This document shows, piece by piece, positions 1,374 to 25,400 of a stretch of DNA of 31,885 nucleotides. The stretch spans positions 1 through 31,885 of IMG/VR virus record IMGVR_UViG_3300005747_000542; one strand, given 5' to 3'. The notes beneath the pieces were generated by a model that had not been told where the DNA came from, searched no databases, and saw only the letters and a list, made by a program, of their open reading frames with translations. The translations under genes and the position numbers were made by a program. The first letter of the stretch is position 1, and the number at the start of each line of letters is the position of its first letter. The DNA comes from a virus.

Positions 1374-1970
1374 ATGTCTGAGCTTGGTAATAATTTATAT
1401 AGGATAAAACAACACGAACAAAAAAAGATTGCAGATGCTCTTAATAGATCTAAACTCATTCCTATAGGAATTAAAACACCTGTTAAACTTAGCAGTAATT
1501 CAAAAGATTCTTTGTTTGAAATGAACACAGACATTATTGATACAATTGAAGATAATTTAAAAAATTTAATTATGACACAGATAGGTGAAAGGTTAGGTTT
1601 TCCTGATTACGGCACAGATCTTTCACAAATTTATTCAGATAATACACTATCAGATGACGAAAAAGTCAATAAAGCAACGCAGCAAATTCTTACAACAGTT
1701 TCAAAATATATGCCAAGCCTAACATTACAACAATTTTATTCTCAAAAAGTAGGTAGTGGTAATAGTGCTAATGAAAATCTAAACAACAAAAAAGGTTTAG
1801 ATATGACAAATGCAGCAAATACGGCATCATTTTCTTCTTCCTTAAAGAATAGTCAAAGTCATATTAACAAAAATAACAAAAACTTACCAAGCAAATATCA
1901 AGTAGACATTACTTATACAGTGCTTGATCGTTCTAGAACCTTAACACTTATTATTAATAGTGCAGTATAA
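1374..1970 (+). CDS. Baseplate wedge protein, gp25/GpW family
   Basis: This 198-residue protein is recognisable as the gp25/W-type baseplate wedge component, which in T4 and P2 helps join the wedges to the hub and sheath. Family features are GIKTPV (about residue 33), an FEMN segment leading into DNLKNLIMTQIGERLGFPDYGTDL with GER at 71-73, and a C-terminal strand region near VDITYTVLDRSRTLTLII. T4 gp25 is about 132 residues. The extra length here lies in a roughly 30-residue N-terminal extension and a Ser/Asn-rich insertion at about 125-168, between the expected beta strands. The gene starts 32 bases after the spike-like gene and is followed after 16 bases by the gp6-like gene, the usual V-W-J order. 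A purine run, AAAAAGAAAG, precedes the ATG in place of a strong Shine-Dalgarno. Confidence 0.92.
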   Translation: MSELGNNLYRIKQHEQKKIADALNRSKLIPIGIKTPVKLSSNSKDSLFEMNTDIIDTIEDNLKNLIMTQIGERLGFPDYGTDLSQIYSDNTLSDDEKVNKATQQILTTVSKYMPSLTLQQFYSQKVGSGNSANENLNNKKGLDMTNAANTASFSSSLKNSQSHINKNNKNLPSKYQVDITYTVLDRSRTLTLIINSAV

Positions 1971-5946: not shown

Positions 5947-8900
5947 ATGAAATTAGTTAACTTATATAATTTTATAAAATCTAGTTATAATAATTCAAGT
6001 GTTGACAATGATACACTTTTAAATGCTTTAAAAGGTTTAAATCTTTTAGAAAATGATGAATTAACTACAAAAGACATATTTAACGTTTTTCAACATTTAG
6101 ATCAATATAACAGTTTTTTTTCAACGCAACAGATTACTCATGCAGACTATAATAAGTTTAAAGATCACGTTTTTTTTGATTCAGCTGTAAGTAAAATAGA
6201 TCATAGCTTTTATAGAATTCTTAAATTTCCTTATGACAAAGATGAAATAAAAAATATTAATTATAAAAATAAAAACGATGGCTATACAAAACACTTATTA
6301 GAAAATGTATTCCCTAAAAGTAGAGGATCAATTATTTTTGATGGTACTAATATTATCGAAGTAGTGGATACACAAGGTTATTTTTTTAACGATTACGAAG
6401 GAAGTCAAAAAAAGTCAGGTATTTTAAATTCATATAACAATAATTTATGTGTAGAATTTTGGTATAAAGTCATTGATTATACTAATGACAATCAAGTAAT
6501 TTTTTCAAAGTATTACAAAGACTTAAATTCTGGGATAGAAGAAGGATATTTATGCTATATTTCTAATATAGAAAACGATGAAAATCGTTTAAATTTAAAC
6601 GTAATTGTATCTATTAGACAAAATATTTATTTTAAGTCTTTTACTATTAATAAAAACGCTGATTATAAACATGCCTGTTTTAATTTGTTCGAAGAAAATG
6701 GTAAAAAAAATATTGAATTATTTATAAACGGGTATAAGATAGAAAAATCATCAAGTGCAGAAATAGGATTTTTGCCAAGTGTAGGATTTAGCGACAACCT
6801 TTCAGAAGATCACGTAGTTTTTTGTATCGGCGGATTAAGTCAAAAAAGTTTATCAGTTAACGGTTTAACTTTTAATAATTTGATCGGTGAAATAGATGAA
6901 TTTAAACTTTCTTTTAAAAGAAAAAGCAAAAATGAGATTAAAAAGGAAATGCATAAAAATGTTTATTCAAACAATTTCCTTAAGCTTTATTTAAAGTTTA
7001 ACGAACCTGCTGGAAGTCATATTAACAATTTTATATGCATTGATTATTCTGGAAACAAAATACACGGTATTATAAAAAGATATAACGAAAATACTTTAGA
7101 ATATGAAGTTTTACAAGACACTTCTAATCTAAGGAACAACAATGTAAATCTTTTACCGATGAAAAAAGAAAGGCTTACAGATAATCCTGTCCTTATTGGA
7201 TCATATCAGTCTATTATAGATCAAAGACAAAGATTATTAGACTTAGCAGTTGAATTTGATAAAGAAAATCCAAATAACATATTTAAACTTTTGCCTAGAC
7301 ATTATTTTATTGAGTCTTCGAATAGTCAAAACTTGCCTATCTATAGTAGACAAGACGCTTATTCTTCTCCAGAAAGTTTATTAGACGAAGAAGGTCAAAT
7401 TGACTTTGACAACGGTAGCAAACTAAGCAGTGATTTTGAACCTAATAGTGATCTCGTAAATGTTGTCTTAATATGGGCAAGATTTTTTGACCAGCTAAAG
7501 TTGTATATATCATCTATTGATAAGATCTTAAATGTTAGTTATGAATCACTTAACAAAAACGATATTTCAAGCATATTTCTTCCTTTAGCATGCAAACATT
7601 ATGGTATTGAATTTTCTGAGATATTTCCTTCTATTACTAAAGAAAAGATTTCTGGGGAAAATCTTGTTTATGAAGACATTGTAAGCGATTTAAGCATAAG
7701 AAGACTTCAAAATTTATTATGGCAAAGATTTTTAATTAATTCTCAAGACTATTTAAAGTCTAAAGGAACTATAAAAAGTCTCGAGTCAGTTTTTAATTCT
7801 TTTGGGATTGATTATTCTAAGTTTATTGATATAAATGAGTATAGCGGATATAATGACTTAACAAACAATTCTAGCGAAAAAACTAATAATTTAAATACAA
7901 ATATTGTTTCTTTCACTTCTGAATCTAATATTTTCAAGGCAACGCCAGTATTTGAAAATACATTGTCAAACAGCATGTCTTTAAACAAGCTTTTTTTAGA
8001 AACTTCTGTAATTAAAAGAAAATTAACTAATCAAAAAGATTATTCTGGCAGTGTTGTAGATGGTTTAGGCAACGAGTGGACACTTGAGTTTTTTATAAAT
8101 TTTTCAAATGCGTTATTAAATAAAAATGAAAATAATTTTAATTTAATTCAAAATTTATTTAGACTAGATTTAGACAATAATGCTATTATTTCAGTTCATC
8201 ATCAAAGATACAGTACAGATACTTTTTACGGTGATCTTTTTATAAACATATACCCGATTAAAAATAATTCAAGTTACGTAATAGAAGAAAAAATCGAAGA
8301 TGTTAATATATACGATAATCCAAAATATCTTAAGTTAAGCCAAAAAATAAATGAAAACTTAGCAGATAATGATTCTGATAGTATTGTTTTTTCACTAGAT
8401 TTAGGCGACATAGGTGAGGTTAATCAGTTAAACAAAGCAAAGACACTTGTTATTCAAAAAGTAGTTGCAAACATTAATGACAAAGTAATTAACAATAATA
8501 TTTCAACTAACAACAATATTGTCTTAAGAATAGGAAGTTATAATTACGCAGATCTTGGTGCATCTTATCTATGTGCAACAAATGATTTTGTGCAAGAAAA
8601 TACAGAATTTCAAGGTGAAATAATAAAAATTAGAGCTTGGTCAAAATTTATTAATGAAAAAGAGTCTAATGTACATCTAAAAAATATTGAAAATATTGGT
8701 GAAGAAAACAACGTTCCTTATCAAAAAATAATATTTGATTTTGATGCAAAGTTTCAAAATAATCTTGAAAATATAGAAGATTTAATTAGTTGGAAAATAT
8801 CAGATAATTCTTTAAACTTAGACGAACAAAAAAATTATTTAAATAGTTGTAAACTAAAAACATTTAATCAAGACTATTTAAACATTGATGTTATAAAACC

Positions 8901-9552
8901 TTTTACTGCTTTAATTAAAAGTCAAAACATAAAATACGACCAACCAACTAAAGAAAATAGAGTTGATATTCATAGCTTTGAGAGTAATGATGCTAAAAAA
9001 GCTTTTAACAACTACAATGAATTTCCGTCAAATAAACCTTATAAATTTTATAACTATGATAGTGTTTCACGTACAAGTATTGATATGTCAGTTGTAAAAA
9101 TAATAAATGATGATATATCTAAGATGATACATGATATATCTGAATTTAATAGACAAGTTAATTCTTTTTATTCAAAATATTCTTATTCATACAAAAGTTT
9201 AGAGCAAATTAGAAAAAATTATTTTGATAAATTTAGCGACAAAGAATACGTTTATTATTCTGATATTGGTAATATATTTAAATTTTTTGACAATATTATG
9301 CAGAAAACTTTAAAAGATGCTATTCCGTACAATTCTAGATATTTAGGTTTTAATCTTGTTTATGAATCACATGCACTTGAAAGACACAAATACGAATACA
9401 AAAACAAAGATAGTAATTTACCTGTTGTTGATGCTCTTGGGCTTGCAAATTATTCCAGAGAATCACTTTTAGTCAAAAGAGATACTAGATATATGGCAAA
9501 TAGACAGCAAGTTTATAAAAATGGAAGTTCAACATTAAGGAATAACAGCTAA
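5947..9552 (+). CDS. gpI-like baseplate/tail protein with two LamG/ConA-like regions
   Basis: This 1201-residue protein has three recognisable parts. Residues about 125-350 look like a LamG/concanavalin-type jelly roll: GSIIFDG, then LCVEFWYKVID, then IELFINGYKI, then IGEIDEFKLS, then LKLYLKFNEPAG. Residues about 585-636 contain RRLQNLLWQRFLINSQDYL and KSKGTIKSLESVFNSFGI, followed by INEYSGY. This resembles the K-[ST]-K-G-T motif of gpI-type phage tail proteins that link baseplate and fibres. Residues about 705-905 look like a second jelly roll: NEWTLEFFINFSN, then VLRIGSYNYADLG, then GEIIKIRAWSKFIN. The C-terminal 250 residues are rich in Tyr, Lys and Asn. It sits downstream of the J-like gene, where P2 gpI or T4 gp7 would be. 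The ribosome-binding site is weak (AAAAGAG). The assignment is good for the domains and moderate for the gpI/gp7 role. Confidence 0.8.
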   Translation: MKLVNLYNFIKSSYNNSSVDNDTLLNALKGLNLLENDELTTKDIFNVFQHLDQYNSFFSTQQITHADYNKFKDHVFFDSAVSKIDHSFYRILKFPYDKDEIKNINYKNKNDGYTKHLLENVFPKSRGSIIFDGTNIIEVVDTQGYFFNDYEGSQKKSGILNSYNNNLCVEFWYKVIDYTNDNQVIFSKYYKDLNSGIEEGYLCYISNIENDENRLNLNVIVSIRQNIYFKSFTINKNADYKHACFNLFEENGKKNIELFINGYKIEKSSSAEIGFLPSVGFSDNLSEDHVVFCIGGLSQKSLSVNGLTFNNLIGEIDEFKLSFKRKSKNEIKKEMHKNVYSNNFLKLYLKFNEPAGSHINNFICIDYSGNKIHGIIKRYNENTLEYEVLQDTSNLRNNNVNLLPMKKERLTDNPVLIGSYQSIIDQRQRLLDLAVEFDKENPNNIFKLLPRHYFIESSNSQNLPIYSRQDAYSSPESLLDEEGQIDFDNGSKLSSDFEPNSDLVNVVLIWARFFDQLKLYISSIDKILNVSYESLNKNDISSIFLPLACKHYGIEFSEIFPSITKEKISGENLVYEDIVSDLSIRRLQNLLWQRFLINSQDYLKSKGTIKSLESVFNSFGIDYSKFIDINEYSGYNDLTNNSSEKTNNLNTNIVSFTSESNIFKATPVFENTLSNSMSLNKLFLETSVIKRKLTNQKDYSGSVVDGLGNEWTLEFFINFSNALLNKNENNFNLIQNLFRLDLDNNAIISVHHQRYSTDTFYGDLFINIYPIKNNSSYVIEEKIEDVNIYDNPKYLKLSQKINENLADNDSDSIVFSLDLGDIGEVNQLNKAKTLVIQKVVANINDKVINNNISTNNNIVLRIGSYNYADLGASYLCATNDFVQENTEFQGEIIKIRAWSKFINEKESNVHLKNIENIGEENNVPYQKIIFDFDAKFQNNLENIEDLISWKISDNSLNLDEQKNYLNSCKLKTFNQDYLNIDVIKPFTALIKSQNIKYDQPTKENRVDIHSFESNDAKKAFNNYNEFPSNKPYKFYNYDSVSRTSIDMSVVKIINDDISKMIHDISEFNRQVNSFYSKYSYSYKSLEQIRKNYFDKFSDKEYVYYSDIGNIFKFFDNIMQKTLKDAIPYNSRYLGFNLVYESHALERHKYEYKNKDSNLPVVDALGLANYSRESLLVKRDTRYMANRQQVYKNGSSTLRNNS

Positions 9553-9553
9553 A

Positions 9554-10567
9554 ATGAGAAATTATGACTCCTTAAAAAAAATAGATGACAGCATAGTATT
9601 TTTTGACAATCAAGATGTAGCTTATACAAAAATTAATGCTGGAAATAACAATTTAGATTTTAAAGACAAACAAAATCTAAAAATGAAAATAAACTATAGA
9701 AGCATTTCAGATAATACACTCAATATCAATCTTTTTGCTGGCGTTAACTCTTCTTATTTGCAAAATAAAATTATATGTAATGACGAAGAAATTAAAAACA
9801 AGCAGCAAAATAATGTCAATTATTCTTTCGACGACAGCAATGATTACAAAGGCAGACCAATTGAAAAAAGTATAATAACTTCTATATTTACTAAAACGTT
9901 AGGATTAGAATCACATGATCCTTTATTTAACAAGATAAGTAATGAACCGTTTTCAGATGAAGAAAACATAGAAGATGCAAGGCGTTTCTTGGAAATGCCT
10001 AACGAAATCAAATACCCAAAGTATTATAATGCCTACTCTTTAAACAGACTAAATTCTAGTATCAGTGTTTTTGGCACTCTAGAGAGTATAAGCGGAGAAA
10101 ATACAACCGAAAGACCTTTGCAAGGCATTGTTTGCGAAATAATTAATAATAGCACAGATGCAAGAGAAAGAAACATACAGTTAACAAGCAGTATTACTTT
10201 AAGAGAGAGAAATTCTAGCAACCAAATAGAAAGCTATTCTGATGAAGAATATCAAGACATTATTTTAAACGATGATGTTTTATTACGTGCGTCTTTTAAG
10301 TATACAAATAGAATTGTAAACGGAAATGTAATTACAATACTCGATACATCTGAAGGTTCTTCTAGTCAAATTTCTGTTTTATCCAACAAAATTATTTTTT
10401 ATACTGAGGATAATAATTTTATTACTGCATTTGACGATACAGTAAAAAATGATTTAAAAAATGGTGATTATAATGATGACGAAATATCATACAGCACAGG
10501 ACAAACAATAGACATGTCAGAAGGTCAGTCAACTGACTCATTAGGATTTTTAGGAGAAATAAATTAA
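9554..10567 (+). CDS. Baseplate-module protein of unknown function (337 aa)
   Basis: I do not recognise this protein. It begins one base after the stop of the gpI-like gene, with AAGGA at 9537-9541 inside that gene as its probable ribosome-binding site. Two bases separate its end from the giant gene, so the three genes are probably translated in concert. It has no signal peptide, membrane segment or evident coiled coil. The middle carries a segment with FLEMPNEIKYPKYYNAYSLN (about 145-165), and the last 40 residues are acidic (DDEISYSTGQTIDMSEG). Position suggests a virion component, perhaps an adaptor between the gpI-like protein and the giant. That is inference only. Confidence 0.7.
   Translation: MRNYDSLKKIDDSIVFFDNQDVAYTKINAGNNNLDFKDKQNLKMKINYRSISDNTLNINLFAGVNSSYLQNKIICNDEEIKNKQQNNVNYSFDDSNDYKGRPIEKSIITSIFTKTLGLESHDPLFNKISNEPFSDEENIEDARRFLEMPNEIKYPKYYNAYSLNRLNSSISVFGTLESISGENTTERPLQGIVCEIINNSTDARERNIQLTSSITLRERNSSNQIESYSDEEYQDIILNDDVLLRASFKYTNRIVNGNVITILDTSEGSSSQISVLSNKIIFYTEDNNFITAFDDTVKNDLKNGDYNDDEISYSTGQTIDMSEGQSTDSLGFLGEIN
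10551..10557 (+). promoter_or_regulatory. Shine-Dalgarno TAGGAGA for the giant gene, inside the upstream gene
   Basis: The strong purine motif TAGGAGA lies inside the last codons of the 337-residue gene, about 12 bases before the ATG at 10570. The upstream stop is only two bases before that ATG, so terminating ribosomes could re-initiate here. Confidence 0.65.
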
Positions 10568-10569
10568 AA

Positions 10570-13500
10570 ATGTCAAATTATTCAAGCTTTAAGATTATTG
10601 ATATTGAAGTTCTAAATAAAAATAGTCTTCTTGTAAATAATCAAGAAACAATAGACTTATTGCAAGACTTATTTATTTCTGGTCAAGGAGAAGATCCGTC
10701 AACAGCATATGGTGGTTTAAGACTTTCTATTTATTTTCCTTTATATGGTCTTCGACTAGACGAAAGAGTAAATCAAACTTTTGACGGAGTAGAATCAACG
10801 TCTTCAATAGACACTAACTCTCTTTTTAAATCAAAGCTAGTACCTATATCTACTATAAAAAACAACTTATTAGTATTTTTTAAATCAATCAAAGCAAAGC
10901 TCAAAGTTAAAGATCAAATTTTACAGCCTGGATTTGTATTCAATCCTGCATTACAAAATCCGTTTATAGACTATAACACTTTGATTAGTATAGAAAATTA
11001 TTTTACATTGAGCTTTGACAAAATAAGTACGCATATTTTAAATTTAAATACACAAAGAATGATACCACAAAATTCTGAAGATTTTGAAAATCATATTGTT
11101 TTTGACATTGTTTTAAATAAAGATGCTTCTTCAGACTTAACATTTGAGTACGAAGAAAACAACAGCTATATACTAGACAGTAATGACTTTTCTCAATTAA
11201 GCGAAATATTTGAAATTAATGACTCAATAGAAGAAAATATTAAATTACAAGATAATTTATTTTTAAAGATTGATGCAAAAGATTTTTCTACAAGAAGATC
11301 TAGTGTAAAAACAAAGTCAATTAAAAAGATACTTAATGACAAGTTTAACAAATATTCGTCTAAACCGCAAAACATAACAATTACGGGAAAAGAACTACAA
11401 AAAACAATCTCAGTTTTTGATGATACTAACACAATTATTTTTGGAGAAAACAATCAAGTTCATTCATCTATAAACGCTCCAATAATTGATATTACCAGTG
11501 AAGAAAGCAAATATTTAAATTTTAAAAATCTTAATTCTATTGGCAGAGAAAACAAATATTTTGACGATAGATTTGTTTTAGAAAATTCTCATATATACGA
11601 CTTACCGCATGCATTAGATGATACTTTTATCGTACAAAAAAATGTATCAAAAAGTATGTTTGACAACCTAATAACACAAAAAAAAGACATATTAGATATT
11701 CAAAGTTTTAATGACAACAGCTTTGATCATGAATTCGCGATTGACAATGATCAAGTTCCTCCTGGGTGGGATAGTTCGACATTAGACGACAGTATATCTG
11801 AAGATTATGACTTTAAGGATCAAAAACAGATTAAAATAACTTTAGACTTTTCTGATGACATTGATTTACATTTAATGAATACACGATTTACGTTTAATAA
11901 ACCTGTTAACAGTTTACAAAATTTTGATCACCCGTCAGGAACAGGTGCAGTTTTTATTAATTTTGAAGACAATGCAGATCCTCAAGGTCCTACTAATTTT
12001 AATTCATTTACAGCTGTAAACGACGATCTTAAAAATACTAACTATTTTAATTTTATTTTATCAAATCCTGCTTCTTATAGTTCACATTTTATGCCAACAG
12101 CGTATTGGGACTTTTCTGAAGGCCGGTGGAATTATTTAGAAGGATTGATTGTAAATGAACAGTCTTACTTTGTTCAACAGCAAACAGACTTAGGCATCTC
12201 GCAAGAAATTACAAAATATGACTTGTTTGGATCAAAAAACTTTTCTAAATTAAGAGAAAATTATAATGCATTTAACAATATACTTCCAAACAATAAAATA
12301 ATAAATTACGAAAATTTTTCGTGGCTTTCTTATTACTCTGGAGGAACTTCAAACGACGGTGAGCTATATTTATCGACTTACTTAAAAAGCAAAAAACCTA
12401 TTTTAACAACACCTTCTTTTAGAAATAGCAACGAAATGCTTTCAGAAAGTAGCTTTTTAAATCATAATAAGTCAAACCTTACTCAAATTACAAGCTCATA
12501 CTCTTTTCCACATGGCTCGCAATGGCAACCAGAAAATAATCATATTTTAGATATGTCAAAATATATTTCCGAAGACTTTCTTTTAGAAAAAATTATAATA
12601 AAAGGAAAATATTCTATGCAAGCTGAAATGCCTGTATTTAAAGGAAATTTTGCCAATTGCTACCGAAATATTTCTGAAAATGAAGAAGTCAATACATCGA
12701 ACGGTCTTTTTGAAAATTATAATTACAAAGACAATCATCATAGTGTTATTTCTAATAATATTACTTTTTTTATTTTAAACGAAAGACAAAATATTGATAT
12801 TGACAACAAGAAATTAAAAAAATTATCTACTCAAGGGTATTTTCTTGTCCCTAGTCATGACGATGCTCAAATTACAAGTAATAATGGAAATCAATTTTCT
12901 TCTAGTGAACAATTTTTATATACAACTTCTTATTATGATTCTGGTAATCTTGAGTCTCCACTACTGCCAGGTTTTGGCATTTTTAATATAAGACAAGCAA
13001 ATGACAAATCTTTTTATTTTCCTAAATTTAATTTTGAAGAAGAACTCTTAAGAGACTATGAAGGAGACTTTTTAGTTTATAGCAGACAATTTGGCATAGT
13101 TGAAAATTATGAAAGCTTTTTGTCTAACTTAGATGACAGTCGATGGGAAAATATATTTGACGCAAGAATTATACCTGTTGAAGTATTAGAAAACAACAGA
13201 TTTAACAATGACGACCTAAATAATTTATCTTATCTTTCAGAAGGATTACTTAAAGCAAAAAGCAATTGTTTTGTATACTTAAAAAACCATAATGACTATA
13301 GTATAGATTATAGCTTGCAAGAAGATTTTGTTGATTATTTTTCTTACAATGAATTTAAAAATCTTAATAGTGAACATGTATATGAAAACTACTTGTCAAA
13401 TAGCGATTATAGCGTTTTAAGTGATCAAGAGACTGCAAAAACTTATACAATACATGCAAAAAACATTAATAATGTCAATACTAATACTACTAGAGAATTA

Positions 13501-16500
13501 GTAACTTACGCTAATTTACTAGTAAGCTCTTCATGGGAAAGTTTCAATATCGACGAAAATATTGTAAAAAATATTGATACACATCATATTACGAAGCTTT
13601 CTAACGAAGAAGGTCTTTGTATTAACATTAAAGAGCCTAGAGAATTTTCAATTTACGCAAATGTAAAAAACAAAACTTTTTCTGGATATAGTAGCGAGTC
13701 TGTTTATGAAATAAAATCAAACTTTAAAACAGACAGGCTTGGACACCTTTCTTATGTTAACAACATAATGGAAGGAAGTTCTTTGGAAAGTGCTTTTAAT
13801 CTTGATAAAACAACAAATAGAATACAAAATGCTAATCGTGTTAATAGAAATTTTTCTTATTTCAAGTCTAACTCAGGAAAAATTATAAATAAAAATAGGT
13901 CTGAAGAAAATGTTATACAGTGCAACTACGTCTTAAAGCCTACAGATCGACTAATTTTTGGAGTTTCTTCTTACGCTAACGGAGAAGTGATGCCTACAGT
14001 TTCTAAGCTTCATGACAAAATAGAAATTATCTTAGTAGGAAGAGAAAAAAATAAACAAGTAAATAAAACAACTAATGACCAGTCAGACAGTTTTTCATCA
14101 ATTGTAATAGGCGATGATAAAAGTTTTTCAAAAAGAGAAGCACTTGCGTCATTGAAAAATAAAAACTTTTATGATAAAGAGTGGGAAAATTCGTTAAAGT
14201 CAGAAAATTTACGTAGTAATTTAAACAAAGAAATATTAGCGTATAAATCTCAAAGTCAAACTTTTAGCAACGTAGTAAAACTTCAAAATAAAAAAACTTT
14301 TGAAAGTCAATCTTTAATCTACAAGAAAGACACAATAGTTCCTGTTGTTCCAGAAATTTTAATACAAGGATACGGAAAACAGATTTTAGATAATAACGAT
14401 GCATTTGATAACTTAAATCTCTACAAGGAAAACAAAAAAATATCTAAAATTATAATTTCTGATAGTTTTACAAACGAAGAAATTGAATCTTTAGTTAATA
14501 CTAGTGCAATAGAACCTAGTTTTTCAAAAGTTTATTCAAACTTAATTTTCGATTGGCATAAGACTTATCCTTATAGCGACGAAAGATTTTCTACAATTAT
14601 GAATAAAGCAAGCTTGATGTCTGATACTTCTTTGTCAGTAATAAGTGAAGTAGACTTTAACGATAATCAAAATATTCTTGCTATTTATTATGACATTAAT
14701 AGTTATTCAATTGGCGGTAATTATGACTTATTAGATTATGATTCTAATGGTTTAACTAGATTTAAACTTGAAAATGATATTAATAGTAATTACTTAAATG
14801 AATTTTCTTTTACAAATAAAACTTTAAAAAATTATTTATTACCCAGCTCTAAGCCATCAAACTATCAAGAAGCTTCACATATAAAAAACTTTAATACTTT
14901 TACTAGTATAAATACAGAATTTTTTGATTCTTTTAACGAGGTAGATACACTTAAAGATATTTCTGGGTTAAGTTCTCGTTTCTTAAAAAATAACAGTGTA
15001 TATAACGCCTTAAAGCATGTATATTTAAATGACTATTTGTCTAAGAAAATAGAAGTGAATAGAGACGACATCAGAGGTGCTTTTGAAGAGATTGATGCTG
15101 CTCAATTGCAAACAAGTAAAACTCAATCTTTTATTGAAAACAATAGACTTATTAAATATGAAAAAAGTAGCAATCAAAACGACTATTTTGAGGTATCTGA
15201 AGCCTCTATGCAGTATTTAAATATAGATAATTCTGATTTTGATTTTATTACATCAGATAAAACAATTGACATTACAGCAAAAAATAATAATTCTTCTTGG
15301 TATTTAGTACTTGAAATAACAGATGAGCAAACAGATGCTTTTATTAATCAATTAAAAATAAATGACGACAATGAGTATAATAGCAATTACTATTTCAATA
15401 GAAACATTGCTATAGACTTAGCACCTTCAATTAAAAACCCGTTAGATGAGACTACACATGTTTTATACACAGACATGCCACTTTATGAAGATTATTTTGG
15501 TGAAAATCAAGTTGCTGTAGGTTTTAATATTTTACATAGGACGTGTAGATTAGTTCAAAAAAGCGATGATCAAGAAAGAAACAAGATAATTATTCCGTTA
15601 TATTTTTGGGAAACTAAAGAAGTTGATGGTGCATACATTAAACTAAACAATTTGTACAATTCTTCAAAGACAATAGATAGTACACACCCGCTTTACTCTG
15701 AAAGTATTTTGCAAGCATACAGTCTTGGCTATTCTAGCCAGTTTAATCAAGTTATTTTAAATGGTGGTTTCGAATCAAAAATTGATTATTTTGCGTCGAC
15801 AAGTGAAATTGGTGATAACTGGTGGGACTCATTTTTGTTTCAATCAGATGGTGATTTTAGATTTGGTGGGTACTTAAGAGATACTGGAGGTAATTGGATT
15901 GGTCATTTATCAAACGGTCAAACTGTAGCTTCTAAAGTACCTGTTTTAAACACTTTTGAAAACAAATATAACGTATATCAGCCTTTTGTAAGTCTGGAAC
16001 ATAGAAAAGTTTATACAAATTTATATACATTATGGGGAGCAGTAAGATGGATGCTAAATAGTCCGGAGAATGTAAATACTCAAGGGCTTGTACACAACAA
16101 AGTATTTCATGACTATTTTAGAATTATTGACACTTCAGTCTATCCTAACACAATTCCTGGTTCAGCAGACACTCATGATATTGACGTTGACTTTAATGTT
16201 GTTTCACAAAAAGTTTATCCTTATGCATCGAGTACTTTGACAACACCTCTTTCAGTTAATAGCTTACACCAACTTTCTATAACATCACCTAATTTTTATC
16301 ATCCAGACATGATTGCAAAGCTAATATGGTCTTCTTCTATTTACAACAGTCCTAAGAGATTTTACTTTAAGCTAAGCAAAACTTTTAACAAGAACGATGA
16401 ACAAAGAAGGCCTGTATTTGAAATAAAAAATATTAATTACGACGGTTTAAAAATAGATAATAAAATTCTTAAAAACAAAAAATATTTTTCAGACTTTTCT

Positions 16501-17898
16501 TCGTTAAATAATAAAAGTAGTTTAATAGATCAAAAAAATCAATTATCAATTTATAATAATGACGATAATGATAACTTTACCTTAAATGAAAAAGTATACA
16601 ATTCAAATATAAGACTTTTTAAAAACAACAAGTATTGCGCTACAAACTATAACATGGTTTACAAGGTTAAACTGTATAATGCGCTAAAGCATGGATTAAA
16701 TAGAATTTTACAGTCTCAACAACCTGTTTTAAAACACTATATATCAGAAGACTCTTCTGTTTTCCATAATTTAAAAAACACAATTTATCCTAACTACTAT
16801 ACCTACTATGGTATTGAGCCTATTGCAATTGAAAATAAAAATAGGTTATTTAAAAAAAATAGATATTCTTACGCTGATCTTGTTTTTGATTCTTCTATCA
16901 ACAGGTATAATAATATTAAAAATTTAAGCGAAGCTGACAGGCTTAAAACAGGAGCTACAACACCTATTAATTCATCAAGACTGAAAAACGATGTTGTTGT
17001 ACCTTACACAAACTATCAAAAAAATACTATGTTAAGTAAGCTAGTTAATAAAAAGCTAAGAGTATATGAAGATAGTTTAATTAATTCTTCTACGAAAAGC
17101 TTAGTTTATAATCCAGGAAAAACTGTAGGTAATTTAGCAAATAAAAACATAGAAGAAGGTGATGTTAGATTAGAATTCGCACCTTATTTTGAAATTAATT
17201 TAAATGATACGTGTTATCATTACGACGGAAAATCAATATCAGACTACTTTGATTTTACTGTTCCTGACCCATCTGATGGTTTTAGTTTAAATCAGAAAAT
17301 TGAAAGCCAGTTAGTTAATTATGTTAATGGCGGAAATGAAATAAAAAACTATAACCTTAATGTTCCATATACACACAATAAATTAGTTAAATCAATACCA
17401 GATAGATTTGTTATGGAAGAAAATTTTGTCCAATCAGACGATTTAAAAATTAAAAACACGGGATCACCTGTTTTTATATTTGATATCGACGAAATTAAAA
17501 ACGAAGAGCTTTATGATTCTATTACTCAAGTTGACGAAAGGTCTAAACTGTTTTTCTTTGGGTTTAAGAGAAAAAGCATATACAAATATCCAGTTGAAAA
17601 AATAGATAGATTTAAGTTTGGAGTAGAAAATGCTGCCAAAGAAACAGAAAGTGTTTATTTTGAACAGGACAATTACGGCCAATTTTCAGACAAAATTATG
17701 GGTACACTAAGTTATTCTCGTGTTTATCAAAACGAAAATCAAGAATATGTAGTTGATTATACAATTAATAAAAAATTCTTTAATATTGACAATTATATTT
17801 TTGAAAGCATGCCAAGTACTGCAAACTATAGTGAGACTTATAACAAAGATTCTTATTCAAGAATTACTACACCTTTTATAGAGACAGACACATATTAA
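10570..17898 (+). CDS. Giant virion structural protein (2442 aa), unknown fold
   Basis: This uninterrupted frame encodes 2442 residues, the largest protein in the window, at nearly a quarter of its length. I do not recognise a family. The body is rich in Asn, Ser, Asp, Lys, Phe and Tyr, with only seven Cys, no signal peptide and no membrane span, as expected for a large intracellularly assembled virion protein. Residues about 1740-1830 differ clearly: they are rich in Trp and Gly (GDNWWDSFLFQSDGDFRFGG, then LRDTGGNWIGHLSNG, then YTLWGAVRWMLN) and look like a compact folded domain. The C-terminal 500 residues contain many Tyr/Asn/Lys-rich segments. Its place after the wedge genes suggests a peripheral baseplate, fibre or tail-surface protein, but no receptor-binding or enzymatic motif can be named. 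The left arm of an inverted repeat overlaps the stop codon. Confidence 0.75.
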   Translation: MSNYSSFKIIDIEVLNKNSLLVNNQETIDLLQDLFISGQGEDPSTAYGGLRLSIYFPLYGLRLDERVNQTFDGVESTSSIDTNSLFKSKLVPISTIKNNLLVFFKSIKAKLKVKDQILQPGFVFNPALQNPFIDYNTLISIENYFTLSFDKISTHILNLNTQRMIPQNSEDFENHIVFDIVLNKDASSDLTFEYEENNSYILDSNDFSQLSEIFEINDSIEENIKLQDNLFLKIDAKDFSTRRSSVKTKSIKKILNDKFNKYSSKPQNITITGKELQKTISVFDDTNTIIFGENNQVHSSINAPIIDITSEESKYLNFKNLNSIGRENKYFDDRFVLENSHIYDLPHALDDTFIVQKNVSKSMFDNLITQKKDILDIQSFNDNSFDHEFAIDNDQVPPGWDSSTLDDSISEDYDFKDQKQIKITLDFSDDIDLHLMNTRFTFNKPVNSLQNFDHPSGTGAVFINFEDNADPQGPTNFNSFTAVNDDLKNTNYFNFILSNPASYSSHFMPTAYWDFSEGRWNYLEGLIVNEQSYFVQQQTDLGISQEITKYDLFGSKNFSKLRENYNAFNNILPNNKIINYENFSWLSYYSGGTSNDGELYLSTYLKSKKPILTTPSFRNSNEMLSESSFLNHNKSNLTQITSSYSFPHGSQWQPENNHILDMSKYISEDFLLEKIIIKGKYSMQAEMPVFKGNFANCYRNISENEEVNTSNGLFENYNYKDNHHSVISNNITFFILNERQNIDIDNKKLKKLSTQGYFLVPSHDDAQITSNNGNQFSSSEQFLYTTSYYDSGNLESPLLPGFGIFNIRQANDKSFYFPKFNFEEELLRDYEGDFLVYSRQFGIVENYESFLSNLDDSRWENIFDARIIPVEVLENNRFNNDDLNNLSYLSEGLLKAKSNCFVYLKNHNDYSIDYSLQEDFVDYFSYNEFKNLNSEHVYENYLSNSDYSVLSDQETAKTYTIHAKNINNVNTNTTRELVTYANLLVSSSWESFNIDENIVKNIDTHHITKLSNEEGLCINIKEPREFSIYANVKNKTFSGYSSESVYEIKSNFKTDRLGHLSYVNNIMEGSSLESAFNLDKTTNRIQNANRVNRNFSYFKSNSGKIINKNRSEENVIQCNYVLKPTDRLIFGVSSYANGEVMPTVSKLHDKIEIILVGREKNKQVNKTTNDQSDSFSSIVIGDDKSFSKREALASLKNKNFYDKEWENSLKSENLRSNLNKEILAYKSQSQTFSNVVKLQNKKTFESQSLIYKKDTIVPVVPEILIQGYGKQILDNNDAFDNLNLYKENKKISKIIISDSFTNEEIESLVNTSAIEPSFSKVYSNLIFDWHKTYPYSDERFSTIMNKASLMSDTSLSVISEVDFNDNQNILAIYYDINSYSIGGNYDLLDYDSNGLTRFKLENDINSNYLNEFSFTNKTLKNYLLPSSKPSNYQEASHIKNFNTFTSINTEFFDSFNEVDTLKDISGLSSRFLKNNSVYNALKHVYLNDYLSKKIEVNRDDIRGAFEEIDAAQLQTSKTQSFIENNRLIKYEKSSNQNDYFEVSEASMQYLNIDNSDFDFITSDKTIDITAKNNNSSWYLVLEITDEQTDAFINQLKINDDNEYNSNYYFNRNIAIDLAPSIKNPLDETTHVLYTDMPLYEDYFGENQVAVGFNILHRTCRLVQKSDDQERNKIIIPLYFWETKEVDGAYIKLNNLYNSSKTIDSTHPLYSESILQAYSLGYSSQFNQVILNGGFESKIDYFASTSEIGDNWWDSFLFQSDGDFRFGGYLRDTGGNWIGHLSNGQTVASKVPVLNTFENKYNVYQPFVSLEHRKVYTNLYTLWGAVRWMLNSPENVNTQGLVHNKVFHDYFRIIDTSVYPNTIPGSADTHDIDVDFNVVSQKVYPYASSTLTTPLSVNSLHQLSITSPNFYHPDMIAKLIWSSSIYNSPKRFYFKLSKTFNKNDEQRRPVFEIKNINYDGLKIDNKILKNKKYFSDFSSLNNKSSLIDQKNQLSIYNNDDNDNFTLNEKVYNSNIRLFKNNKYCATNYNMVYKVKLYNALKHGLNRILQSQQPVLKHYISEDSSVFHNLKNTIYPNYYTYYGIEPIAIENKNRLFKKNRYSYADLVFDSSINRYNNIKNLSEADRLKTGATTPINSSRLKNDVVVPYTNYQKNTMLSKLVNKKLRVYEDSLINSSTKSLVYNPGKTVGNLANKNIEEGDVRLEFAPYFEINLNDTCYHYDGKSISDYFDFTVPDPSDGFSLNQKIESQLVNYVNGGNEIKNYNLNVPYTHNKLVKSIPDRFVMEENFVQSDDLKIKNTGSPVFIFDIDEIKNEELYDSITQVDERSKLFFFGFKRKSIYKYPVEKIDRFKFGVENAAKETESVYFEQDNYGQFSDKIMGTLSYSRVYQNENQEYVVDYTINKKFFNIDNYIFESMPSTANYSETYNKDSYSRITTPFIETDTY

Positions 17899-17961
17899 TA
17901 AGTAAGATAAAAATTTTCAAATTATACCTGCACAAAATTTAGTTATGATACTTATTAATAT
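17892..17961. repeat. 13-bp perfect inverted repeat with a nested 7-bp inverted repeat
   Basis: ATATTAATAAGTA at 17892-17904 is the exact reverse complement of TACTTATTAATAT at 17949-17961. Inside the 44-base spacer, AAATTTT (17911-17917) pairs with AAAATTT (17934-17940), leaving a 16-base loop. The left arm includes the last sense codons and the TAA (17896-17898) of the giant gene. No T-run follows the right arm, so it is not a standard intrinsic terminator. It could be an RNA processing, stabilising or protein-binding element. The longest intergenic gap in the window (17899-17986) holds this structure and the ribosome-binding site AAAGGA at 17971-17976, and nothing else that I can see. Confidence 0.6.
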
Positions 17962-17986: not shown

Positions 17987-19087
17987 ATGGCAGGAATACT
18001 AGACAAAAAAGAAAGAATATTTGATTTTGTTATTACAGATAATGGAAGATCACAAATACAAAATAATGACATAAGATATAGATACGCGTCTCTTTCAGAC
18101 TTTTCTACTGTTTATACAAAAAAGGAAATTGAAAGTCAAACGTTTGGTAATAGAAATGACATATCTGATGTTGACCATAGTAATATTTTTTTAGAAGCTA
18201 CAACAAAATCAAATAATAATTTAAATTATGAGCTGAATTTGTCAGACTTTGTAAGTTTTTCTGATAATAGCTTAGATTCATCTCTAAAAGAAGGTGCAGA
18301 TTTTACAGATGCAAACACTAGTCAAGGTTTAAGTTTAGGTGAGTCAATATTAAACTTAAAATTATTAACAACTAAAAATAAATTAAACGAAAATGCATCG
18401 TTAACATTTGTTGAAAACGAGTATCTTACAAATGACTTGGCATTTAGTACAGTCTCTGAGCAGTATTTTTCTGTTGGTAGACAAAGAGTAAATAAAAATA
18501 ATATTCCTGTTTTGATAAATGATGAAAAGTTTAAAAACAAGACAAAATACAAAAAACTAATTCCTGTTTCAAGTCAAAATATTCCTATCTACGAAGAAAA
18601 AGATTTTAGTAAAAAATACAATCCAGAAGAATATAAATCAGACAATTCTTTTTTTAAATTTTATAAATATTTTAATCCTGGATTGAATCAGAACAATTTA
18701 AATGAAATAAAAACACTTAAAAATATTATAAAAGATATTGAAAACAGACCAGATGCGTTAAAAAGAATTTATCAAATCGAAAAATTTTCAAATGATAATA
18801 ATTTTATTTTTGAAATGTTTGAATCGAGTCAAAGTGAAAATAATAATGACTTAAAAAAAATATTTCTTATAAAAGTAGGCGAGTTTTATGACGAAACAAA
18901 AAACGTAATAAAAAGAGTATATCAAGCTGGTCATATTATTAATACGAGAGATGACTTAGAAGATTCTTTTAAGGAACTTTATTTTTTTAAAGATACAGAT
19001 CCTAATAATAGTAATACTAATTTAAAATCTTTTATAATTGACTCTTTTTATAGTTTTGTAGTTTTGTTTACAATAGTCATAGAATAG
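17987..19087 (+). CDS. Virion protein with N-terminal 'T-x-x-G-R' module (366 aa)
   Basis: This protein opens with MAGILDKKERIFDFVITDNG and continues with Arg21, a short helix ending in NND, and YRYASLSD. Its first 40 residues align, offset by one residue, with the protein at 29116-29877. Asp13, Val15, Thr17, Gly20-Arg21, Asn27-Asp28 and Asp38 match Asp14, Val16, Thr18, Gly21-Arg22, Asn28-Asp29 and Asp41 there. From memory, this type of N-terminus recurs in structural proteins of large marine phages. The rest is hydrophilic and Asn/Lys/Asp-rich. The extreme C-terminus is hydrophobic (DSFYSFVVLFTIVIE), an odd end for a soluble virion protein and perhaps a packing strand. AAAGGA (17971-17976) lies 10 bases before the ATG and supports the start. 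The exact role is unknown. Confidence 0.75.
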   Translation: MAGILDKKERIFDFVITDNGRSQIQNNDIRYRYASLSDFSTVYTKKEIESQTFGNRNDISDVDHSNIFLEATTKSNNNLNYELNLSDFVSFSDNSLDSSLKEGADFTDANTSQGLSLGESILNLKLLTTKNKLNENASLTFVENEYLTNDLAFSTVSEQYFSVGRQRVNKNNIPVLINDEKFKNKTKYKKLIPVSSQNIPIYEEKDFSKKYNPEEYKSDNSFFKFYKYFNPGLNQNNLNEIKTLKNIIKDIENRPDALKRIYQIEKFSNDNNFIFEMFESSQSENNNDLKKIFLIKVGEFYDETKNVIKRVYQAGHIINTRDDLEDSFKELYFFKDTDPNNSNTNLKSFIIDSFYSFVVLFTIVIE

Positions 19088-19102: not shown

Positions 19103-22100
19103 ATGCATATAATAAATAAAAACCAAAGACTTAATTACAATATAAATAAAAACTTAATATACTCTGTAAGGAGTGAAGAAAGAGATGAATTTAATTTTTT
19201 TATTCCTATTAGTATAAGTCAAAAAAGTATTCAGCAAGTTTCAAAAATAAAAATTGATTTTATAAAGTCTTCTAGCTTTTCACAAATATTTGACAATAAA
19301 TATTTTGATATGACTTCTACGTTTACAAACCATAATACAAGCAGCTTTTTTAAACAAGACTTTAAAAACGACATAAGAAAAAATATGTATCCAAAGTATA
19401 ATAATACTTTAAATATAAATTCTTCAAAACTTGAATTAAATGATTTTGTTTCAGTTGAACATGAAATAAATTCATCAAATACAAGTTCGTTTTTTTCTAC
19501 AGAAAATAGAAGAAGAGTTGAAATAAATGAGCTTGTTGACTTTCAAAGATCGCTATATACAAACCAAGAAAGTGTTGCAGTCTCTAATCAAAACAATAGT
19601 CTATTTTTTTCTTATTTTTATTTATTTAGAGTTCCACAAACATTATCTACAAAAATATCTACAAATCAGATAAATTATTTTAGAGTTATGTTTTTTGATC
19701 AAAACTCAAACTTAATTGCAAAATCAGAAGTTTATAATTTTGATTTTGAAAATTTACTAGAAGAAAAACAAATTATAGATTCTAGTATTTATTATAATGA
19801 AAATTTTTCTCAATTATCTGACAATATTCGATTAATTTTTACAAATTTTTCAAACTATGATTTTATGTTAAGCGTTGATGGTTTACAAGAAGTCGATCAA
19901 ATTAGACCAACAAATATTAATATTAATATTAAACATATGCAAAGTAATTTACTAATAACTGAAAGCTTTGGTATATCTCAATTTGAAAATGGTTTTTCTA
20001 GCATTAGCATTTTTAACAGTAATTCAGGTTTAAATAGCTTTGTTGAAAGACTAGTTTTTGGATATTGTTTTCTTGAAGAAGAAAATTTTAATTTTGATGT
20101 TCAAGTAATTTTAACGTTAGGTGAACAAAACAAAGAAGTTTATTTAAAATTAAACAAAACTATAAGTTTAAATAAAAATAGTAATTTTATAACTTCTATT
20201 TTAAGTAATAGAGAAGTATTAAGATCAAATCTAAGTAATATTATTAATCAAATTTCTATAGAGCAAATATCTGAAAAAATAGATGAAAATACACTTAAAA
20301 ATACTGTATCGCTAACATCTTCAGGAGAAATAAGCAACGAGATATTAAAAAAAGTAAAAGTTTTACAAGTTTTAAAAAATCAGTTTGATATTAGTAATAA
20401 CATTTATAACGATAGAAACAAATTATTTTCAAATAAAATGTATATTATAGATAAGAGTTTGAGTGAATTATTAAACTCAGGTAGATATTTTACTTATTTC
20501 ACAGACTTAAATTCAAGAAATAATCAAACTAATATTGTTTTATCAATATCTGGAGTTGATTTTTTGGAAGAATCTATTTCTAAAAGCTTTGTTTCACAAA
20601 ATTTTATTTTTTCAAATAATTCTTCTAATATTAGAAATATAGAAAAACTAAATAAAACTTTCTCAAAAAATTTAAAAATAACTAGTTTAGAAAAAAGTCC
20701 TGTTTTAAACGACAGAAAAGACTCTTTTGTAGATATAAAGTCAATTGAGTTAAGAAATATTAATTCTTTTTCTTCGTTTGCACAACAATTTGGTTATACG
20801 TTAGAAGGCAATAATTTGCCTGACGTTTTATCTTTTTTAGAAAACTGTGTTATTGTATTTGAAAACTATACAGTAATAAACAGCTTAAATATAAGATTAA
20901 ATAAAAGTAATATTTGCTTTTTCGAGAATGTTTTTGTAAGAGAAAATATTGATCAAACAAACGAGTACTATTTTTCATCTACAGAAAATTTTTCAGGTCT
21001 TGTAATAAACACTGACGACTTGTATGCTATAAATACATTAGACAATTCAGGTATGAAAAATAGTCTATTTACAGGATTTTTAACTTCTGATTCAGATGAT
21101 TCAAAATATGAGTATTTAAAAAATCTTCTCGAGATTACTCCTACGTTAAAAATTGACAATAAACTAGAAATATATATTGTTCCTATACCAAAAATAATAA
21201 GCTATTATAAAGGAGAAGAATTAGACAGTTTAAGTAATCCTGTAAACTTAACACCTAGCCAAAAAGAATTAATCGATGGCGGACAAACCGTAACATTAAC
21301 TAGCGGTAAAACTATTAATTTAGAAAGTAGAAAAAATTTATCTGTTGCATTAGAAGATTATCTGTATGTATCTGAAATTTCTTTAAATCCTTCTCTTTTT
21401 GATTCTTTAAAAACGGTTTTATTAAGCTCAGACAGTCTGGAAAATCGATTAGAATACTATAGTTTATTTGATGTGCTTGTTAAAAAGAAAGTATCACCTT
21501 TAAGTATTGCAAAATTTAAAAATTCAATAGATATGTCAATAGTTTTTAAAGACTTAGAAAGTATAATAAATATTGATAATACTTCACAAATAGAATCTTT
21601 TAGAACACAATACATTGAAGAAGACTTAATAAACAATTTTTTTAACATAAACAGTTTTTCAGCTGAAAGTATAAATAACTTTAACTACACAATAGATTTT
21701 TTAAATAATCAAAGTAATTCAGAATTAGGTGTAAGAACTATAAAGACAAAAAATATAATGTTTGTTCAAAATACATCTGAGTTTGAAATATTATTTGATA
21801 TTAGCGATTTAATTTCTTATTCAAATATAGACCAAATATTATCAATTAAGCCTATTGTTAGATCTTGTCCTGTTTTTGTTATGACTAGCAGAAATGGTAA
21901 TATTAATAATACATTATCTGAAAGGCTAAATGATTCACAATTTTTTGATCGTGTTATTTATAATGATAAAAATTGTATTATTTATAACCACAACTATGTT
22001 ATAGAAAGCCAGAGAAATAGTATATTTAAAAACTATACAAATGAAAACATGTATTACAATTCTTTTAGCATAGAAAAAGAAGAAGAAAGATTTTATTTAA

Positions 22101-22381
22101 AATTAAAAGCAAATAGAAATAATCAATCAAATGTATTTCAAAACAATTTTTATTCTTACGTAAAATCTTTTTTTGATTTTTGCGTATCTGAGTCTTTTAA
22201 CGTTTTGGAAGATGTTATTGAAAGATTTTCTATTTCTTTTGAAATAGAAAACAAGAACATGGAACCTATATACTTTACAATTTATTTTAACGGTGAATTT
22301 TCAAAAAATAATAGATATAAAAATCATATTGTGTATATTGATGAAAATACTTTAACATTAACTAAAAGATCTTTATTTTAG
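19103..22381 (+). CDS. Large unknown protein, probably a virion component (1092 aa)
   Basis: I do not recognise this protein. It starts 15 bases after the 366-residue gene with a weak purine leader (GAGAAAA). It has many predicted-looking beta stretches separated by Asn/Ser-rich turns. Examples are FNFFIPISISQKSIQQVSKI near residue 30, YFRVMFFDQNSNLIAKSEVY near 195, and a C-terminal FSISFEIENKNMEPIYFTIYF followed by HIVYIDENTLTLTKR. The middle (about 360-560) alternates helix-like Lys/Glu/Ile segments with NISNI-type linkers. There is no membrane span, signal peptide or catalytic signature. It lies within the structural block and has the same composition as its neighbours, so a structural role is the likely reading. 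No function is claimed. Confidence 0.7.
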   Translation: MHIINKNQRLNYNINKNLIYSVRSEERDEFNFFIPISISQKSIQQVSKIKIDFIKSSSFSQIFDNKYFDMTSTFTNHNTSSFFKQDFKNDIRKNMYPKYNNTLNINSSKLELNDFVSVEHEINSSNTSSFFSTENRRRVEINELVDFQRSLYTNQESVAVSNQNNSLFFSYFYLFRVPQTLSTKISTNQINYFRVMFFDQNSNLIAKSEVYNFDFENLLEEKQIIDSSIYYNENFSQLSDNIRLIFTNFSNYDFMLSVDGLQEVDQIRPTNININIKHMQSNLLITESFGISQFENGFSSISIFNSNSGLNSFVERLVFGYCFLEEENFNFDVQVILTLGEQNKEVYLKLNKTISLNKNSNFITSILSNREVLRSNLSNIINQISIEQISEKIDENTLKNTVSLTSSGEISNEILKKVKVLQVLKNQFDISNNIYNDRNKLFSNKMYIIDKSLSELLNSGRYFTYFTDLNSRNNQTNIVLSISGVDFLEESISKSFVSQNFIFSNNSSNIRNIEKLNKTFSKNLKITSLEKSPVLNDRKDSFVDIKSIELRNINSFSSFAQQFGYTLEGNNLPDVLSFLENCVIVFENYTVINSLNIRLNKSNICFFENVFVRENIDQTNEYYFSSTENFSGLVINTDDLYAINTLDNSGMKNSLFTGFLTSDSDDSKYEYLKNLLEITPTLKIDNKLEIYIVPIPKIISYYKGEELDSLSNPVNLTPSQKELIDGGQTVTLTSGKTINLESRKNLSVALEDYLYVSEISLNPSLFDSLKTVLLSSDSLENRLEYYSLFDVLVKKKVSPLSIAKFKNSIDMSIVFKDLESIINIDNTSQIESFRTQYIEEDLINNFFNINSFSAESINNFNYTIDFLNNQSNSELGVRTIKTKNIMFVQNTSEFEILFDISDLISYSNIDQILSIKPIVRSCPVFVMTSRNGNINNTLSERLNDSQFFDRVIYNDKNCIIYNHNYVIESQRNSIFKNYTNENMYYNSFSIEKEEERFYLKLKANRNNQSNVFQNNFYSYVKSFFDFCVSESFNVLEDVIERFSISFEIENKNMEPIYFTIYFNGEFSKNNRYKNHIVYIDENTLTLTKRSLF

Positions 22382-22417: not shown

Positions 22418-25400
22418 ATGCCAGCAAATTCAGATACGAACAGCAATAATAATTTTAATCAAAGTTTTGACTCAGAGTATGGAACTATACAAAATTTTAT
22501 AAAAGGATTAAACCAAAATTATTTGCAAAGCAACAATATAGAATTTTTAAGTTTAATTGAGTCTAACGATAGCTTTATATCATCTGAAGAATCTTTTGTG
22601 CAAGGCATCGACTTTTATAATGAAATTGACGACATTTATACTTCGTCTCTTAATCAAACTTTTTCAAGACTATCTCAAGAAAATAGATTTATTGATCTTT
22701 TTCATAATACTGTTCTTACAGATGCAAATAACTTATCTAATATTTCTAGTACTATCGAAAGTGCTGTGTTAGATAAGAAAAACAATATAACAAATAATAG
22801 TTTTTCTAAAAAAATTATTTCTTACTTTAATGAAAACACTTTGTTAAATGACTTCTCTTTAATAACAAAAAGTTATCTAGAAAAATTTGATAATATGACA
22901 CACCAAAATATAATGTCTGGTTTAGACTCTAGCATAGACTTTTTTACAGACTTAAATAGCGATAACGAAGGTTTTGAAGATGTAAGTAGTTTATTAAGTC
23001 AAGAATTTGTTCATAATAGAAGCAGAAGATCTTCTGTTTTAAAAGAGTCTCTTTTAGTTGATTATGGTAATTTGGAAATTAGAACAGACGAAGTTTCTTT
23101 TACTAAATTAAAAAAAGAAACAACAGCTGATACTGTTATTCAAAGTATGATAAATTTTTCAAGATCTATTTACGCAATGTCTCATAAGTCATATCTAAAA
23201 AATATTGATCTTTCATACGACTTTCAGCATAGATATTTAGACTACAGTCAAGAAAACTTAGACCTAATAAATATTATTCCAGACTTTTATAGTTATAATA
23301 CTTCTTCAAATGTTTTTGATTTTATCAATACAAAAAATAGCAGCTTTGAATATAATCAGTACTTTAGAAAAAACAATATTGTTCCTTTTAATGCAAATTC
23401 ATACAATATTACTAATGAACTAGTGTTAACAAACAGTTTTAACGAAGAAAATTTTTTACCTTATTATATTCCATCGAATATATTAAATACATTTGTTAGC
23501 AATCTAATGATTGAAAACTCAAAATATACAATGTCGTATCCTCAAAATAAAATTAATAGCACACAGCGAGGCATTGGAGGATTGAGTGAAGGTACGCAAA
23601 CAAGAGAAGTAGAGGGTCAACAAGTCGGGGCCTCTAATGTTTATCCTGCATGGTACGCAAACTATGGTTTTAAAATACTTAATGAATTTAATAAATGTTT
23701 TACAGGATCTTTTTTTGATGTCAATTTTAGTAATGCATGTTCTAAAGTAAACGATTTATATGTTTGGATGTTTTATTTTAACGCTTTATATAAAAATTCA
23801 AACAGCTTAGAAGACATAAGAAATACTGCTTCACCTTATAATTTAAGTTCAGGTGCAGCTGGAAATTCTGGTTCTGATCCTAGCATGCTGTTTTACAATC
23901 AAGGTGTAATGGATGATTTTACAGCTGGACAACACTTTAGTAATGTTTTTAACAACATACAACAAAATGAAAATCTAGAAAACCCAGAATCATTGCGGCC
24001 AGGTTTTGTTTTTAATTATTTTAATTTTAAAAATCAAGGAAAGATATATTTTCAAAATAAACCTATTGTAAAATATAACGGCTTACAAACTTCTAGCAAT
24101 AGAGAATTTAGCCAAGATAATCAGTCAAATTTTAATGAATTAATTTACAAGCAAAGAATTGATTATTTAATTAAAAAAATAAAGCTTAAAAAGCTTAAAA
24201 ATCTTAACATAGATAAAAAAATATTTGACGAAATAATAGAAAATATAAAAAAGTCAAATAACAAGTCTATAGTTTTATCATATTGTGAAAACGATGAAAA
24301 AAATATATCAGCAGTAAATAAAAATAATGAAGTTTTTAATTTATTGTTTACAGAATCTTCTGATGTTTTAGGTGATAACAATTATTATAGCCATATAGAC
24401 TTGCTTGGTGATATGTCAATTAACAATAAAAGTTTTTTAGGATATGATAAGTTTAGACTTTTACAAAGAAGAGTAAATGGTGATGAAAAAAGAATAAAGG
24501 AAAACCTTTTAAATTTTATAAACAATTATTATGACAATAGTATATTTTTTTCAAGCACCACTTTTTTTGATTTTGTTTTAAATTCAATAATAAATGATCA
24601 AACTTATTCAGTAAATGACTTAGGAAATATTGTTCAAACAAACAATAGTTATGATTATATTGATGTTTTAAATTGTCAAGCTCTTTATTTTAACTATATA
24701 ACTAGTGAAGAAGCAAGTAGTAGTGTTATAGAATTAATTGTTAAAAGATTTATTGAAAAAGCAATTCAGCTTGACAGTGTGTCTAGTAATTTAATTAAAA
24801 ACAGTCTTAATAATAAATTTTATGCATATGATAATGAGTCTATAAGTTTAGATGACTATGATGACGAAAGTGAAGAAAGTTTAATTCAGTATCAAAAAGA
24901 TATTTTACAGACGTCTGACGATTTGAAGTTTATTAAAAATTCTATTTATTCCTTAGAAAACATAGAATCATTAAGCAATAAATCTGATTATAAGTTTGTT
25001 AGTAATATTAGAACAGTTGATTATTCTAACACTTCTGGTAATACACAAAACAATATAAGTAATTCGAATAGACAAGCAAGAATTGATGAGGCATTTACAC
25101 AGTTAACACAAGAAAACTACTCTAGCTGGTTAAGTTCACAAAAATTTGGTGTAGCAGCAAATATTGCTTCTAATTTTTACCCTGGTCATATTCTTTTTTA
25201 TCCTTTTAGATCATATAGTGATTTTAGTAAAGATGGAAAAGTTATTTATGAAAAAACCCTTTACAATAAAATTAAAGAAAAACCTAATACTAACGGAGAA
25301 AAATTTTATATTGAAAAAGAATCAAAATTCAACATATCAAAAGAAAAAAATATAAAAATTAAATTAAATGCTTATATGTGTGTAAGTGATGAAAAGAGAT

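Follow-up and report, generated by a model that had tools for sequence, protein, structure and literature searches.

A giant protein encoded in the tail cluster of marine Far-T4-like phages is a candidate component of the outer baseplate

The tail cluster in isolated phages and in the window

In phage T4, the genes for the peripheral baseplate proteins (gp7, gp8, gp10 and others) follow gp6 directly within the late tail cluster. Two isolated relatives of the locus described here, Flavobacterium phage immuto (vB_FspM_immuto, NC_055915) and Microcystis phage Mel-JY01 (PP395634), carry gp25, gp6, w4-like, w5-like, w12-like and fibre genes in the order found in our locus (genes of the locus being denoted by w and a number) and, unlike it, are without w6, the giant gene w7 and w8 to w11. 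A further isolated phage, Rhodothermus phage RM378, is of the Far-T4 type (PMC4360716, PMC7198788). Far-T4-like phages are reported to be widespread in aquatic environments, and the marine ones have been linked to Bacteroidetes/Flavobacteriales (PMC4360716, PMC7198788, PMC13037479); none of these three papers uses the word 'baseplate' in its text.

The window, the whole stretch of DNA analyzed here, comprises the 31,885 bases of an IMG/VR virus record; its G+C content is 26%, and its features given below all lie on the plus strand. Its gp25-like and gp6-like genes are adjacent, as in a T4-type wedge cluster. The gp25-like wedge protein (1374..1970) matches a wedge PHROG with an E-value of 1.7e-5 and Pfam GPW_gp25 with 1.9e-4, the latter below the Pfam cut-off, and the gp6-like wedge protein (1987..3834) shares 25% identity with the annotated immuto wedge protein (E 3e-37). 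Upstream lies w1 (1..1341), which is conserved in the cluster and cut at its 5' end by the contig. Downstream follow w4 (687 aa, 3865..5928), distant kin of a post-gp6 gene in Mel-JY01 and, weakly, in immuto, and w5 (1201 aa, 5947..9552), the counterpart of a post-gp6 protein of ~1265-1336 aa in the same two phages; relatives of w5 carry a Laminin_G_3 lectin-like domain. The clade-specific w6 (337 aa, 9554..10567) has a stop codon that adjoins or overlaps the start of the giant gene (10570..17898), which encodes 2442 aa. The original prediction had placed the giant immediately after the wedge genes; it does lie downstream of the gp25/gp6-like cluster, but w4, w5 and w6 intervene after gp6. Beyond the giant are w8 (366 aa, 17987..19087), the fast-evolving, clade-specific w9 (1092 aa, 19103..22381) and w10 (1699 aa, 22418..27517), and w11 (523 aa, 27517..29088), the last gene of the clade-specific block. 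The next gene, w12 (253 aa, 29116..29877), is conserved in immuto (gp107) and Mel-JY01 and ends the block, and w13 (516 aa, 29904..31454) has a C-terminal stretch of ~85 residues that recurs in several neighboring genes of both phages. This module (residues ~431-516) is repeated at the ends of five neighboring genes in Mel-JY01 and two in immuto and is presumed to be common to presumed fibre proteins. The C-terminus of w8 ends in a conserved hydrophobic tail, (F)xSF(V/I)xxFT(I/L/M)(V/I)(I/V/L)E, in 8/8 members. Glycosyltransferase-like genes are located just upstream of the baseplate cluster in two related contigs (L028:3573-4805 and G006 11286-13696), and no tRNA or Rfam RNA was found in the window.

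The interval between w5 and w12 distinguishes the window from its isolated relatives. In immuto and Mel-JY01, the homologues of these two genes are separated by one 403-aa gene or by none, which identifies w6 to w11 as an inserted block in the tail cluster; in the marine clade the interval is filled by these six genes, the giant being the largest. The 403-aa gene at the giant's position does not detectably resemble any of the giant's blocks. Profiles of the giant blocks gave no convincing match in immuto, Mel-JY01, LR756508, L007 or RM378, a whole-record search with the C-terminal half of the giant gave no match, and hhalign comparison of the giant blocks with w4 to w11 or with outgroup proteins found no paralogy. 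Judged from these comparisons, the giant appears to be a clade-specific protein of Far-T4-like phages that was inserted together with w6 and w8 to w11, with a wedge-associated gene on one side and a fibre gene on the other. Since the N-terminal domains of w8 and w12 are alike, duplication adjacent to w12 may have enlarged the block.

A family of giant proteins in one phage clade

The giant open reading frame has an ATG start, a TAA stop and 2442 codons and occupies 23% of the window, in line with the 'nearly a quarter' given in the original prediction. The longest stop-free run in 50 mononucleotide shuffles of the window was 161 codons. An orthologue of 2483 aa with 49% identity occupies the same position in a 133-kb contig (G001); divergence between the two genes is 0.40, 0.30 and 0.52 at the three codon positions and thus highest at third positions, and full-length orthologues contain no internal stops. 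As predicted from the window, the open reading frame is, on this comparative evidence, a real gene. Since its source is a metagenomic contig, an assembly artefact or a fused reading frame might be suspected; uninterrupted orthologues in independently assembled contigs, with 23-49% identity and the same flanks, already refute this reading and make it next to impossible.

As a single query, the window giant had no match among 50,697 phage records or in IMG/VR, and its relatives were reached solely via neighboring genes and small alignments. A search with gp6 led to G001 and to a contig of 45 kb, G002; the two carry identical giant genes and are counted as one genome. In total, seven full-length giants besides that of the window were found at the same position (G001, 2483 aa; L021, 2494 aa; L061, 2416 aa; L060, 2160 aa; L058, 2245 aa; L052, 2222 aa; L064, 2124 aa), and three more are cut by contig ends (L022, L013 and L059). 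G002, L020 and L053 duplicate members already counted. All relatives are metagenomic.

The giant family resembles no described family at the sensitivity used, as defined by null results in PHROGs, Pfam and PDB. The window protein has no match in PHROGs, Pfam, NCBIfam or PADLOC, so the original description as a protein with no recognizable domain holds, and its homologues gave only isolated sub-threshold matches to these libraries. Eleven members scanned singly against PHROGs, Pfam and NCBIfam yielded none above threshold, and the family matched neither PDB sequences nor the 50,697 phage records. Two candidates were discarded: AGS_C in one orthologue (E 0.0068, below the cut-off) was taken as chance, and ribosomal eL31 in the PDB sequence search (E 0.025) disappeared with a deeper alignment. 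Comparison with other large marine phages, proposed in the original prediction, returned chance-level matches only: tblastn searches with the alignment consensus, and with four members at relaxed E-values, gave Pseudanabaena phage Pan5 (E 4) and Acinetobacter phage 133 (E 5). A motif likeness to large proteins of other marine phages is therefore not claimed. The family thus appears to be conserved inside its phage clade, with no relative detectable beyond it. A full-length match to a well-characterized family was found in none of the libraries searched, and the original prediction of a major, undescribed virion structure, for example a giant peripheral fibre or a baseplate skirt, is supported in part: a conserved family sits in a baseplate/fibre cluster and has no detectable relative under any name in those libraries, whereas a major share in the virion and a fibre or skirt form are suppositions.

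The window phage is probably a T4-type contractile-tailed phage, judged from its close relative G001, whose gp6 is 76% identical to that of the window and whose genes outside the window region match PHROGs for T4-type terminase, portal, major capsid and sheath. In ranked tblastn searches, the uncultured phage LR756508, immuto, RM378 and Mel-JY01 come ahead of cyanophages for the G001 capsid, while its terminase is nearest to LR756508, immuto and Mel-JY01 and RM378 is not among the top rows. We call the group Far-T4-like because of these rankings. The T4-type capsid of RM378 thus ranks among the nearest, beside those of immuto, Mel-JY01 and LR756508; RM378 is unlike the window in that its longest open reading frame seen is 1019 aa and no giant block profile matches it significantly. 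In a gp6 tree, a long branch with full support separates all giant-bearing contigs from immuto, Mel-JY01, LR756508 and L007; L004 branches between the two groups, and its contig ends before giant status can be read. We infer a marine origin of the group from related literature and the title of one MAG. One contig of the group, L013 (NZBH01000044.1), belongs to a MAG that bears the label 'archaeon ARS1414'; it is probably misbinned phage DNA and provides no evidence of an archaeal host. G001 also contains three paralogous, unusually long tail-sheath-like genes at 75272-88177 (1044, 1783 and 1226 aa; L031:15272-18406, L031:18451 to L032:3802 and L032:4497-8177), the first of which matches sheath PHROGs while the other two match the first by BLAST.

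Predicted fold and divergence of the giant protein

Structure prediction and fold search, which the original prediction had proposed as a check, yielded poor AlphaFold models, with mean pLDDT values of 40.5 and 37.2 (11 and 8 sequences), and Foldseek searches of these low-confidence models against BFVD and PDB gave no significant match. In the first model, strands with pLDDT 70-90 drawn from residues 396-1161 (11755..14052), the most conserved half of the giant, pack as a sandwich. These strands are discontinuous in sequence, and the model packs them into a possible jelly-roll with long variable insertions; most conserved residues fall in predicted beta strands, with variable insertions between them. 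VIA-align ranks jelly-roll domains first for this model, led by cocaine esterase (3puh_A, Z 7.5, 155 residues aligned at rmsd 3.6) and furin (1p8j_C, Z 6.6, 129 residues aligned at rmsd 3.1). Z values below 8 are common by chance in VIA-align, so we take the beta-sandwich with large insertions as a hint and assign no fold; residues 396-1161 may form a jelly-roll, at a level that is not significant. A second, weaker unit (residues 1533-1939, 15166..16386) is built at low confidence in the second model as small and beta-barrel-like, with a best VIA-align Z of 5.4. No baseplate or fibre protein is listed in the VIA-align rows, which excludes nothing: the models are too poor to reveal baseplate homology by fold, and none is found by sequence. 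The giant has no transmembrane-like segment (maximum 19-residue hydropathy 0.94), searches of PHROGs, Pfam, NCBIfam and PADLOC assigned it to no enzyme family, and neither fibre-type repeats nor a collagen or beta-helix family were detected in it.

The giant, w9 and w10 are the fastest-evolving proteins of the cluster. When the window is compared with G006, gp6, w12 and w13 are 54%, 59% and 54% identical, respectively, but the giant and w9 are each 23% and w10 is 22% identical. Fast divergence of the giant beside a conserved wedge is the pattern expected of outer, variable parts. Values of dN/dS are 0.45/1.74 for the window and G001 and 0.32/0.87 for L064 and L022; the ratios are below 1 but dS is near saturation, so that they indicate no more than purifying selection in general. 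The N-terminal region (residues 1-229, 10570..11256) differs in sequence between relatives, and its ~220 residues are nearly absent in L013 and L052. From there on, conserved blocks (~240-770, ~960-1260 and ~2290-2441) alternate with variable insertions, the last corresponding to a conserved C-terminal block (residues 2285-2441, 17422..17892).

An inverted repeat noted 3' of the giant is present, with 19-nt arms at 17892-17910 and 17943-17961 that are 89% complementary and almost pure A+T. It folds no better than shuffled sequences (z -0.27), was not found in the orthologous 88-nt gap and shows no terminator pattern; terminator and promoter scans are near chance. The repeat is a chance-level, non-conserved feature and carries no weight.

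A putative outer-baseplate platform and its alternatives

Gene order links the giant to the baseplate. The order gp25-gp6-w4-w5-w6-giant-w8-w9-w10 is found in every contig covering the region, and in G006, as in G001, it runs on through w11, w12, w13 and many further genes. In 10/11 contigs the giant gene starts -1 to +2 nt from the w6 stop, and in the remaining one +14 nt; this near-abutment suggests coupled translation of w6 and the giant. The w6 homologues L064:7833-9293 and L022:7833-9293 (486 aa) hold an extra stretch that resembles part of w4 (E ~1e-6), a module moved between neighboring genes.

We consider the giant to be, with a probability of about 0.6, a structural protein with several domains that belongs to the outer (peripheral) baseplate of a contractile-tailed, Far-T4-like marine phage. 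A structural baseplate role is likeliest because in nearly all relatives the giant gene begins next to the w6 stop or overlaps it, and the outer baseplate is favored by position, coupling to w6, restriction to the inserted block, the beta-rich core, fast divergence and the lack of an enzymatic or membrane signature. Genes within structural clusters are not always structural, and adjacency of w6 and the giant is by itself no proof of binding. The giant is like the T4 peripheral proteins in its presumed outer-baseplate position and unlike them in having no detectable similarity to them in PHROGs or PDB sequences and more than twice the length of gp7. We infer its presence in the virion, peripheral location, partners, copy number and relay function. 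Made together with its neighbor w6, the giant would attach to the conserved gp25/gp6 wedge by way of w6 and w5 and enlarge the outer baseplate into a platform that carries the fast-evolving w8 to w11 and the fibre proteins w12 and w13; such a platform could relay receptor contact to sheath contraction. It is conceivable, at a clearly lower level of confidence, that w6, the giant and w8 to w11 (~6,460 residues) constitute a lineage-specific six-protein outer baseplate in which the giant is a scaffold with a fold absent among known virion proteins.

The giant might instead itself be a giant tail fibre or receptor-binding protein, long and trimeric, with its variable regions touching the host. 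Its gene lies between wedge and fibre genes, and fast divergence, an N-terminal region exchanged among relatives and conserved strands set apart by large variable insertions would all suit such a protein. Fibres, however, usually keep their attachment end and vary at the tip, whereas the conserved blocks of the giant extend from residue 240 to the very C-terminus, which mildly favors a platform over a fibre. The window moreover has other fibre candidates, w12 and w13, that are common to related phages, and no fibre repeat or tip family was found in the giant, so that we regard a fibre as unlikely, if worth serious attention. Location weighs further against a protein that enters the host by injection or is carried within the virion, with an ejection, anti-restriction or virion polymerase-like role. 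Very large phage proteins of this kind exist and no domain in the giant excludes the role, but the gene is found between wedge and fibre genes and not among head or early genes, and nothing matches in PADLOC, Pfam, PHROGs or NCBIfam; we judge this improbable. A tape-measure or other axial tail component, to which the great length and the tail cluster might point, is more improbable still: length varies from 2124 to 2494 aa with large internal insertions, the predicted models are without long helices, and G001 genes of 1490 and 1564 aa downstream of the sheath-like genes are better placed for that role.

The conserved six-gene block that holds the giant is the fastest-changing part of the tail cluster. 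Built around a protein of ~2,100-2,500 residues, this block sets the marine phages apart from their isolated relatives. Virion proteomics and cryo-EM can be directed at it specifically, and in metagenomes it can serve to recognize the group.
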